DNA of 64,000 nt from Rhizobium oryzihabitans (GTDB lineage: Bacteria; Pseudomonadota; Alphaproteobacteria; Rhizobiales; Rhizobiaceae). The translations under genes were made by a program, and so were the position numbers. Positions 43,285 through 46,000 of this stretch are shown here, piece by piece (the first letter of the stretch is position 1; every line of letters begins with the position of its first letter). The notes beneath the pieces are model-generated. The model was not told the origin of the DNA. It worked only from the letters and a program-made list of their open reading frames with translations, and ran no database searches. Location: positions 248,001 through 312,000 of the forward strand of contig NZ_CP048632.1 of the NCBI RefSeq assembly GCF_010669145.1, written 5' to 3'.

Positions 43285-43843
43285 GGCGCTGAAATCCTTG
43301 TGGGTGGCGTTGCCGGTCCGCGCATCAAACGATGGGGCCGACGGCGATCCTCGCGAACGGCAAATGGCCATCCTACAGCTCTATTGCGAGGTTCTTTCCG
43401 AGTGCAGCGAGGCGGCTATCTGGAACACGGTCAATAACCTGCGCGCAGGCAAGATCGAAGATGCCAGCAAGAGCTTTTGTCCGAAGGCTCCCGAACTGGC
43501 CTCTTATGTCCGCAGTGAGCAGACACGTCTCGACGCGCTGAACCGGCCAAAGTCTATCGCGGCTCAGCCAGTGACCCGGCCTTGGACCGATTGGCGAGAG
43601 GTTCACCTGAACCGGGCATTCAAGGAAAATCGTGCGTTCATCGAGCATGTGACGCTCGATCAAGCGAAAGCTCGGTCCAGTCGGAAGAAATACCCAGCCG
43701 GTTCGACGTGGTTTTGGTCCCTTGGTCCCGTCGATACCATGCTTGGCTCAATGTATGGGCCTGCCGGTAGCGCGGAAACTGACGGTCAAATCTGGGGCGA
43801 CAACAGGCAGCATGTACCTGCATCGGTGGTGATCCATGTGTGA
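43253..43843 (+). CDS. Prophage hypothetical protein, possibly replication-associated
   Basis: A 196-residue protein starting MNASFRPSTIEALKSLWVALPVRASNDG. The middle (LQLYCEVLSECSEAAIWNTVNNLRAGKIEDASKSFCPKAPELASYVRS) resembles loader-like proteins that sit near phage helicases. It overlaps neighbours at both ends. No certain family. Confidence 0.62.
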   Translation: MNASFRPSTIEALKSLWVALPVRASNDGADGDPRERQMAILQLYCEVLSECSEAAIWNTVNNLRAGKIEDASKSFCPKAPELASYVRSEQTRLDALNRPKSIAAQPVTRPWTDWREVHLNRAFKENRAFIEHVTLDQAKARSSRKKYPAGSTWFWSLGPVDTMLGSMYGPAGSAETDGQIWGDNRQHVPASVVIHV

Positions 43844-44039
43844 TTGCCCTCTATCCGAAACAGAGCTTCGTGTAGCCCGCTGGCTGGCGGATGGAAAAGA
43901 CTGCCAGGACATCGCGCTTATCCTGGATCGCAGCAAGATGACGGTCACCCGGCATATCGCTGCGGCCTACAACAAGACCGGCACCCACAACATGCACGGC
44001 CTCGTCGCCTTCGTTCTGCGTAAAGGATGGCTCGAATGA
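43836..44039 (+). CDS. Stand-alone LuxR-type HTH protein 1
   Basis: A 67-residue protein that is just a GerE/LuxR HTH: LSETELRVARWLADGKDCQDIALILDRSKMTVTRHIAAAYNKTGTHNMHGLVAFVLRKGWLE. It has no receiver or sensor domain. The next gene encodes a similar protein of identical length. Possibly a late or lysis-timing regulator; not proved. Confidence 0.85.
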   Translation: MCDCPLSETELRVARWLADGKDCQDIALILDRSKMTVTRHIAAAYNKTGTHNMHGLVAFVLRKGWLE

Positions 44040-44239
44040 TTGAAAGAATCCCCACAGATCGAGAGATCGAATGCGTTCAGGCTATTGCCAATGGGCTGAC
44101 TGCCAAGCAGGCATCGTTCAAGCTCGATACATCGATCAATCTGTTCAACAGGCTCCTTGAGAGAGCGCGTCTGAAAACAAGCGCGAAAACAACGGCTGAA
44201 CTGGTCGCAATCGCCATGAGAAACGGATGGATCCAATGA
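44036..44239 (+). CDS. Stand-alone LuxR-type HTH protein 2
   Basis: A 67-residue paralogue-like protein: PTDREIECVQAIANGLTAKQASFKLDTSINLFNRLLERARLKTSAKTTAELVAIAMRNGWIQ. Aligns along its length with the upstream protein (shared ...LVA(F/I)...(R/K)GWxx end). 4-bp coupled. A tandem duplication that has diverged is likely. Confidence 0.78.
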   Translation: MIERIPTDREIECVQAIANGLTAKQASFKLDTSINLFNRLLERARLKTSAKTTAELVAIAMRNGWIQ

Positions 44240-44508: not shown

Positions 44509-44591
44509 CCCCCATCCAATGGAACGGCTCAAGCACCAGCTTTGGGCCGGCGTTTGAGAAGGCAGTGAATAGCAGGGGGCTTTTCGCATGA
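44505..44591 (+). CDS. 28-residue linker mini-protein
   Basis: MTPIQWNGSSTSFGPAFEKA then VNSRGLFA, joined by 4-bp overlaps to both neighbours. Its role may be mainly to couple translation into the methyltransferase. Confidence 0.42.
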   Translation: MTPIQWNGSSTSFGPAFEKAVNSRGLFA

Positions 44592-46000
44592 GATACGGCT
44601 CAGTGTGCAGCGGCATCGAAGCCGCGACCATGGCTTGGCATCCACTCGGATGGACGCCGGCATTCTTCAGCGAGATCGAGGCTTTCCCCTCGGCCGTCCT
44701 CGCTCATCACTACGGATCGAACATGCCAGGAGAACCGCTGGCAAAGAACGGGATACCGAACTATGGCGACTTCACGCAGATCGGCGCGGATGCAGGACCA
44801 ATCGACCTTCTTGTGGGAGGAACACCCTGCCAGTCTTTCTCGGTCGCAGGAAAGCGTCTCGGACTGGATGACCCGCGCGGTAACCTCGCCCTTGAGTATC
44901 TCAGCCTGGCTCGGCGCCTGCGCGCCCGCTGGATCGTATGGGAAAACGTCCCCGGTGTCGTTTCCTCTGTCACGGATGAAGAGGACGGTGAAGGCGGTAT
45001 TCAGTCAGGAATTGAAGGACGCGAAGCCGGAGACGAATGGATTGAAGAAAGCGATTTTGCGACCTTTCTCTCATTCGTTCGGGAATGCGGGTATGGGTTC
45101 GCCTACCGAGTTCTTGACGCTCAATATGTCCGAGTGGACGGCTTTGGACGGGCTGTCCCTCAGCGACGACGGCGTGTGTTCGTTGTCGGATATCTTGGAG
45201 ACTGGCGACGTGCCGCAGCAGTATTACTTGAGCCCCAAGGCATGCGCGGGGATTCTGCGCCGCGCCGAGAACCGGGGGAAGGAACTGCCGGAACAATTGA
45301 TGCGAGCGCTGCGCGCAGTCGCGGAGCAGGCGTAAACCCCGGCATGATAACAGGTGACTGGCCGGCTCAAGTCTCTCCGACACTCGACACCTATTATGGT
45401 GACAAGATGGGGCTTGAAGATCAGCACATATTCAATCAACGCGGTGGAAAGTTTGTGCCTGTTGCCATACAGGCAGGCGCCCTGCGCGAGAACCCAAACA
45501 GTGGCCCTGACGGCGTTGGCGTTCAGGAAGGCATTTCCTACACGCTGGAAGCTCGATCAGAGGTGCAAGCCGTTGCTTTCGATACAACGCAGATCACCAG
45601 CAAGGCCAATTACAGCAATCCTCAGATTGGAGACCCTTGTCATCCTCTCGCATCAGGTGCGCACCCGCCGGCTGTGGCTTTCGCTCAGAACACCCGTGAC
45701 GAGGTTCGCCTGTTCGGTGGCGACGGGCAGGTGGTTGGAGCTCTCGCCGCAGAACCCGGCATGAAACAACAATCGTATGTCGCTCAGGATTGGGCCGTCC
45801 GCCGACTGACCCCGACCGAATGTGAGCGTTTGCAGGGATTTCCCGACAATTTCACCAATGTCCCATGGGGCAAGAAAGACACGTCGCCCGACGGGCCTCG
45901 ATACAAAAGTTTGGGGAATTCTATGGCGGTAAACGTGATGCGCTGGATCGGCCGGCGGATTGAGATGGTGGAGAAGATCACGAAAGGAGAGGCGGCATGA
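44588..46000 (+). CDS. C5-cytosine DNA methyltransferase
   Basis: A 470-residue Dcm-type enzyme. Motif I FSGIEA-like CSGIEAATMAW, catalytic GGTPCQSFS (motif IV), WENVPG (VI), PQRRRRVFVVG (VIII), RRLTPTECERLQGFPDNF (IX) and KSLGNSMAVNVMRWIG (X) are all present. The target-recognition part lies between VIII and IX. It probably protects phage DNA from restriction. A conserved-looking second frame overlaps the centre (see 44763-45335). Confidence 0.93.
   Translation: MRYGSVCSGIEAATMAWHPLGWTPAFFSEIEAFPSAVLAHHYGSNMPGEPLAKNGIPNYGDFTQIGADAGPIDLLVGGTPCQSFSVAGKRLGLDDPRGNLALEYLSLARRLRARWIVWENVPGVVSSVTDEEDGEGGIQSGIEGREAGDEWIEESDFATFLSFVRECGYGFAYRVLDAQYVRVDGFGRAVPQRRRRVFVVGYLGDWRRAAAVLLEPQGMRGDSAPRREPGEGTAGTIDASAARSRGAGVNPGMITGDWPAQVSPTLDTYYGDKMGLEDQHIFNQRGGKFVPVAIQAGALRENPNSGPDGVGVQEGISYTLEARSEVQAVAFDTTQITSKANYSNPQIGDPCHPLASGAHPPAVAFAQNTRDEVRLFGGDGQVVGALAAEPGMKQQSYVAQDWAVRRLTPTECERLQGFPDNFTNVPWGKKDTSPDGPRYKSLGNSMAVNVMRWIGRRIEMVEKITKGEAA
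44763..45335 (+). other. Second conserved reading frame inside the dcm gene
   Basis: In the +1 frame relative to dcm, 190 codons stay open. Its last half reads GMGSPTEFLTLNMSEW, then SLSDILETGDVPQQYYLSPKACAGILRRAENRGKELPEQLMRALRAVAE. I recall this SLSDxLETGxxPxxYxLSxxACxGILRRAxxRGKxLP motif as a real segment of many phage proteins. So the same bases encode two conserved protein segments. A start inside or near 44868 (MTRAV) is possible; expression is unproved. Confidence 0.55.

Follow-up and report, generated by a model that had tools for sequence, protein, structure and literature searches.

To our knowledge, long same-strand overlapping genes have rarely been established in tailed phages. 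In one methyltransferase, M.EcoHK31I, the small-subunit gene reportedly lies inside the large one and in another frame (work said to be that of Lee et al. in 1995). The available part of a later source describes M.EcoHK31I (YGGCCR) as two polypeptides, of which the larger has motifs I-VIII and X and the TRD and the smaller only motif IX, and describes M.AquI (CYCGRG) as a C5-methyltransferase split between motifs VIII and IX into two subunits (PMC3404938). Genes hidden in another frame of phage methylases are also already known, in the form of the out-of-frame HNH endonuclease insertions of the ShiLan type described in the available part of a second source (PMC11855218). A literature search of open-licence papers found no description of the nested gene considered here, which we call ORF2.

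ORF2 overlaps a methyltransferase gene in the window, the whole 64,000-nucleotide stretch of DNA that was analysed (contig positions 248001-312000), where the two frames and their landmarks are placed as follows.

44588-46000, + strand: dcm, an intact frame 0 open reading frame of 470 amino acids, assigned as a phage-type cytosine-5 DNA methyltransferase
44763-45335, + strand: ORF2, nested inside dcm in the +1 frame; 190 amino acids counted from the ATG at 44763
44825..44833, + strand: PCQ in the Dcm frame, read from the window sequence, within the ORF2 overlap
45158..45178, + strand: PQRRRRV in the Dcm frame, read from the window sequence, within the ORF2 overlap
45180..45323, + strand: C-terminal core of ORF2, SLSDILETGDVPQQYYLSPKACAGILRRAENRGKELPEQLMRALRAVA, marked out by invariant columns and selection; the matching part of a relative (L225) is predicted to form two helices
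45800..45844, + strand: Dcm motif IX (RRLTPTECERLQGFP) in frame 0, downstream of ORF2, read from the window sequence
45911..45934, + strand: Dcm motif X (LGNSMAVN) in frame 0, read from the window sequence

Frame 0 matched PF00145 (DNA_methylase) in Pfam at E 1.1e-36 and phrog_116 in PHROGs at E 4e-74, and motifs IV, VI, VIII, IX and X were all located by eye; by these marks the gene at 44588-46000 is a cytosine-5 DNA methyltransferase. We take PCQ to be motif IV and PQRRRRV to be motif VIII. ORF2 begins before motif IV and continues beyond motif VIII, with its stop about 460 bases short of motif IX. The preliminary description had quoted a peptide from each frame, along with GMGSPTEF and SEW motifs and an open second frame of 190 codons, and we found all of these in the overlapping frames, as claimed. 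An alternative ATG at 44790, which would give a protein of 181 amino acids, aligns with the conserved start of the family. In an alignment of 17 ORF2 members, 16 columns are invariant, nearly all of them within the C-terminal third; NCBIfam gave nothing significant on 17 ORF2 proteins. The 573-base ORF2 stretch occurs three times in the host genome with 100% identity (contig positions 292763, 356871 and 3190388), which suggests related prophages that were recently duplicated or repeatedly inserted.

A tblastn search of phage records with ORF2 returned 130 records with a match, including phages of Caulobacter, Vibrio, Pseudanabaena, Akkermansia, Streptococcus, Ruminococcus and Mycobacterium. 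All six loci that we inspected (Caulobacter, Mycobacterium, Enterobacter, Oscillospirales, Sinorhizobium and the P1-like phage RCS47) have ORF2 in the +1 frame of a methyltransferase gene. The P1 record NC_005856 contains the RCS47 ORF2 stretch across its full 492 bases at 99.0% DNA identity, dmt being the only annotation under the match. P1 offers a laboratory phage in which ORF2 can be tested. The P1-like and CobraSix genes lack GYLGDW in the Dcm frame and keep the ORF2 core. Two loci have further peculiarities. In the dmt gene of RCS47 (L008 898-2219), a stretch that by eye resembles an intein splits Dcm motif IV (PC/Q), and the ORF2 open frame starts downstream of it. In Mycobacterium phage Phoebus (L005 1116-2232), the Dcm frame stops soon after ORF2, which is intact, and motifs IX-X sit in a separate annotated gene.

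Loci retrieved with ORF2 itself favour its presence, so Dcm genes were sampled with a query from the Dcm N terminus, which overlaps ORF2 only over about its first 25 codons. The 80 best viral Dcms of the 'GGTPCQ' kind made up set A and the 80 best of the 'CGGFPCQD' kind set B; set C, the cellular Dcms, consisted of 30 of the top-scoring PF00145 genes in 200 genomes of the host's phylum. The N-terminal queries were themselves taken from genes with a nested frame, which means that sets A and B represent relatives of such genes. In set A, 79 of the 80 genes matched the ORF2 profile in their +1 frame; in set B (0/80) and set C (0/30) none did. Of the set A contigs, at least 17 had been fetched earlier through ORF2, so that among the remaining 63 at least 62 carry it. 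Median lengths of the longest +1 open run were 162 codons in set A, 230 in set B and 70 in set C, and those of the longest +2 run 59.5, 56 and 43, respectively; a long nested frame, though of a different type, is therefore present in set B as well. ShiLan-type genes are insertion elements with an HNH domain, whereas the window ORF2 has no Pfam match up to E 1, overlaps the catalytic core and is of a kind present in 79 of the 80 sampled Dcms of its class.

We then asked whether the +1 conservation might arise without any second protein, only from conservation of Dcm and biased codon usage. Near-identical Dcms were dropped before the codon tests, which kept 70 of 80 genes in set A, 71 of 80 in set B and 28 of 30 in set C. 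Part of the signal has such a passive origin: the Dcm protein alone gives a weak ORF2-likeness, and 754 of 1400 synonymous shuffles of dcm still passed the ORF2 profile at E 1e-3. A crude regular-expression test also found the +1 frame open between PC and motif VIII in only 53 of 76 set A genes (+2 frame: 1 of 76), a count that we put down to misplacement by the expression because the alignment shows almost no +1 stops there. Against this explanation, the real +1 score exceeded that of all 50 shuffles in every set A gene (70/70; median 120 bits, lowest 0.4, compared with a shuffled mean of 16 bits) and in all 71 set B genes. When synonymous codons were shuffled 100 times per gene, no shuffle reached the observed +1 run in 22 of 70 viral and 0 of 28 cellular genes, and at most 5 of the 100 did so in 45 of 70 viral genes and in 1 of 28 cellular ones. 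Stops in the +1 frame of set A fall to at most 0.001 per codon across the nested stretch, compared with 0.8-9% in other intervals of the alignment; in set B, between the PCQ motif and a point close to the end of the nested stretch, they stay at or below 0.004 per codon, and in set C they amount to 1.2-11%.

The variability of codon positions points the same way. Third-position diversity of the set A Dcm genes is 0.56-0.74 outside ORF2 and 0.35-0.50 over most of it, and at the ORF2 C terminus (columns 160-204) it drops to 0.17-0.30, with first-position diversity rising up to 0.58-0.64. In the set A interval at column 180, residue conservation is 0.50 for Dcm versus 0.83 for ORF2. This inversion contradicts the idea that there is no second protein, which only an alignment error would revive. 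The lack of both a long +1 frame and a diversity shift in the cellular Dcms also speaks against it.

We also classed substitutions by their effect on Dcm (first letter) and on ORF2 (second letter), with N for a changed and S for an unchanged protein. Among 394 set A pairs, the NN/NS ratio was 0.97 upstream of ORF2, then 0.77, 0.72 and 0.33 (0.29-0.38) along it, and 0.92 and 0.95 downstream. The cellular control, noisy with only 7 pairs, scattered between 0.67 and 1.00 for NN/NS and between 0.50 and 0.76 for SN/SS, so the ratios for the N-terminal half of ORF2 are not clear of it; the C-terminal 0.33 is, and it carries most of the weight. For the clade of the window itself, we compared the window with six relatives, leaving out three of the nine relatives tried (L108-L110) in which the start pattern was unmatched. 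In these seven sequences, NN/NS was 1.09 upstream, 0.51 and 0.42 in ORF2, and 1.01 and 1.00 downstream, with 0.44, 0.16, 0.15, 0.67 and 0.47 third-position differences per codon in the same five parts. Thus, in set A and in the window clade alike, the second frame is under purifying selection beyond that on the Dcm frame. True dual coding, one of the two origins that had been proposed for this overlap, gains support from the constraint on synonymous sites of dcm inside ORF2 and not around it, in the large set as well as among near relatives. From these patterns, ORF2 is almost certainly a real coding sequence, and the absence of a second protein is extremely improbable.

For the best-supported ORF2 start, a Shine-Dalgarno match of at least 4 bases was found in 64 of 70 set A genes and of at least 5 bases in 54 of 70, figures that are inflated by the choice of the best start per gene; at other ATGs of the same genes, the corresponding values are 8-15% and 1-5%. 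The start falls at one same position in 53 of the 70 genes. Most of these Shine-Dalgarno sequences are written in the Dcm codons for KEW or QEW (a pattern present in 64/70), where AAG outnumbers AAA by 41 to 5 (474 versus 477 over all K codons) and GAG outnumbers GAA by 44 to 14 (650 versus 808 over all E codons). In set B, the nested start has a match of at least 4 bases in 51 of 71 genes and of at least 5 in 23 of 71, and its position is less fixed. By these signals, most set A members have a predicted ribosome-binding site of their own for ORF2 and a start codon at a fixed place.

An alternative is that ORF2 has no internal start and is reached by +1 ribosomal frameshifting from the Dcm start, yielding a fusion of the Dcm N terminus to ORF2. 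Such a fusion is encoded in one open frame at 2 of 375 loci, and in the window copy we found no clear Shine-Dalgarno sequence at ATG 44763 or 44790, nor at the start of dcm itself. Frameshifting would, however, leave unexplained the position-fixed start codons of set A with their Shine-Dalgarno sequences and matching codon bias, as well as the third-position diversity, which begins to drop near the fixed internal start. We regard it as very unlikely.

ORF2 is closely tied to Dcm. With the nested profiles run over 494 loci, all 314 ORF2 matches listed, which were not deduplicated, lie in the +1 frame of a Dcm match, and the Dcm frame is open in 313 of them and has a stop in one. All 159 further ORF2 loci listed, fetched with Firmicutes-phage-first and P1-first queries, likewise overlap Dcm, whose frame is open in 158 of them and interrupted by a stop in the other. 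Matches of the set B type lie over Dcm in 234 of 237 cases, and the three exceptions are weak (22 bits or less). The second-frame segment had been taken for a conserved part of many phage proteins; as a free-standing phage protein it was not found, and all confident copies examined overlap a Dcm gene. No free-standing homologue was present among the matches listed, which were the best 80 of about 600 rows in each collection scan, a depth at which a rare copy standing alone could escape notice. Of 375 distinct loci, 7 have ORF2 in one open frame with a piece of Dcm, five having the order ORF2-TRD-IX-X and two the Dcm N terminus followed by ORF2; these fusions could be natural rearrangements or sequencing errors. 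The five resemble the arrangement of M.AquI, from which the window differs in that its second frame lacks TRD, IX and X and its chains overlap in different frames.

The nested proteins of set B form a sister family that ends in NPxWVEWLMGFPxGWT. Among complete Dcms, a motif IX pattern that detects 39 of 55 cellular Dcms was found in frame 0 of 61 of 65 set A genes and 0 of 66 set B genes, and a IX-like pattern in the +1 frame of 1 of 65 and 58 of 66, respectively. Consistent with this, the eight best places of the set B nested profile on 57 cellular Dcms are all motif IX. Pfam gave nothing significant on 57 set B nested proteins. The profiles of the two nested families align over their N-terminal 97 columns (hhalign, 95.5%), for which shared Dcm ancestry could partly account. 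One gene of the sister family is already annotated: gp56 of Paenibacillus phage Shelly, with the note 'g55 internal gene', is a +1 gene nested in a DNA-cytosine methyltransferase, and it is matched by a set B nested protein, that is, by the motif IX-bearing family and not by the ORF2 family. An independently annotated homologue, which the preliminary description had called for, therefore exists for the sister family and was not found for ORF2 itself.

By pattern, the set B nested family matches the division of motifs described for M.EcoHK31I in the available part of PMC3404938, a likeness drawn from that description. ORF2 differs from it in two respects. The large chain of M.EcoHK31I lacks motif IX, whereas the window Dcm and 61 of 65 set A Dcms have it; and the small chain of M.EcoHK31I carries motif IX, whereas the window ORF2 has none and has a different C-terminal segment instead. 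Since these two defining features differ, ORF2/dcm is not of the EcoHK31I type, and since ORF2 lacks motif IX and its own Dcm has IX and X, the EcoHK31I rationale is not directly transferable. The placement of the small chain inside the large one in another frame, reportedly a feature of M.EcoHK31I, is true of ORF2/dcm too, and by analogy the pair may work in a similar manner.

What the ORF2 C terminus might contribute is suggested by its likeness to ordinary enzymes. When the ORF2 profile was run on 57 cellular Dcms, the eight best places were all one segment (DIL..Y.LS; LADILENDEDVPESYFLSA and similar), which follows motif VIII in all seven cellular Dcms where motif VIII was located; several of the eight matches are alike and not independent. 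The best score was 10.3 bits and the second 7.4, compared with 8.6 for the best of 1140 shuffled sequences. A loose regular expression for the post-VIII segment, written with ORF2 in mind, matched none of 70 set A genes in frame 0 and 56 of the 70 in the +1 frame; among cellular genes, 5 of 28 matched in frame 0. In hhalign, the ORF2 C terminus aligned with the canonical post-VIII segment at E 0.045, with one of 40 column shuffles scoring higher. The reverse search, with cellular profiles against ORF2, gave nothing significant, and a PDB search for ORF2 relatives returned none, only one unrelated match at E 0.72. The PADLOC profile MTase_II matched 5 of 66 ORF2 proteins (best E 0.0016); in the one member where the match was located, it covers profile positions 300-373 of 408, an unexpected region and not the one after motif VIII. 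Together, the ORF2 C terminus appears weakly to resemble the segment after motif VIII of ordinary C5-methyltransferases. The predicted structure of the relative L225 has a helical hairpin there, with pLDDT 86-94 over residues 111-140 and 78 over 141-150, and its first 100 residues average below 50; on this model, the N-terminal part of ORF2 is probably disordered.

The best-supported function, which we consider moderately probable, is that the cytosine methyltransferase is split, with ORF2 as a nested subunit that is translated separately. From its internal start, ORF2 would be translated separately, wholly inside dcm in the +1 frame, as the small second subunit of the overlapped enzyme. Its C-terminal hairpin would dock onto Dcm in the interval from motif VIII to the target-recognition region and would provide a segment that is found in some one-chain enzymes and is not seen in the ORF2-bearing Dcm frame; the sister family, in another phage Dcm type, would bring motif IX likewise, as reported for M.EcoHK31I. 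Such an arrangement may have originated in an old pair of frame changes that left the piece in the other frame, where an internal start rescued it, with the outcome that both chains would be co-expressed and co-inherited from one gene. An ancient frame switch was the other origin put forward at the outset, and the likeness of the ORF2 C terminus to the post-motif VIII segment is suggestive of it; that likeness is weak, and ORF2 only possibly arose in this way.

The main alternative is that ORF2 is a real nested protein with a function outside methylation; it might, for example, counter restriction, act as a regulator or be another early effector of the phage. The coding evidence for this is identical to that for a subunit; moreover, no recognisable domain was found in ORF2, its N-terminal 100 residues are predicted with low confidence and motifs IX and X are already present in the Dcm frame. 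An effector unrelated to Dcm would be expected to turn up elsewhere at times, yet among the matches listed ORF2 was not found away from Dcm; the nested sister family carries motif IX, and at five loci ORF2 is in one frame with the rest of Dcm. We consider a role outside methylation possible but doubtful.

If ORF2 is indeed a methyltransferase subunit, part of the enzyme would have been missed both where phage dcm genes were cloned with recoded codons and where specificity was judged from the Dcm chain alone, and such genes would be a test case for one protein fold divided between two frames of one gene. More broadly, and with confidence somewhat short of even, we suggest that phage orphan cytosine methyltransferases of several types may mostly be split, with the second subunit in the +1 frame; that different lineages may have moved different pieces (motif IX or the post-VIII segment) by ancient frame switches; and that many dcm genes annotated as single, including P1 dmt, may be two interlocking subunits.

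Existing protein families may already contain such frames. At E up to 1 in PHROGs, 16 of 17 ORF2 proteins matched phrog_16143 (best E 4e-11; window ORF2 0.012) and 4 of 17 matched phrog_1008 (best E 8e-5), and at least 13 of 20 phrog_1008 loci are frames overlapping a Dcm, two of the 13 being the same place. Both families are named 'DNA methyltransferase', a name that fits the overlapping enzyme and is silent on nesting. They appear to describe nested frames and not the enzyme frame, and gene callers may therefore sometimes have picked the nested frame. Elsewhere in the host genome (region 3012735; L207 1368-2217) lies a Dcm of a second type, and the nested frame that overlaps it belongs to the phrog_1008 family.

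Two further observations concern dcm and its surroundings. A close relative of the window gene (L011 2808-4967) has, by eye, about 200 extra residues within motif IX, which may be a further insertion element of the sort reported in phage methylases. Upstream of dcm in the window, two small tandem genes (43836-44039 and 44027-44239) both match phrog_3282 (sigma factor, transcription regulation), at E 3e-7 and 4e-11, and so look like a duplicated regulator pair.
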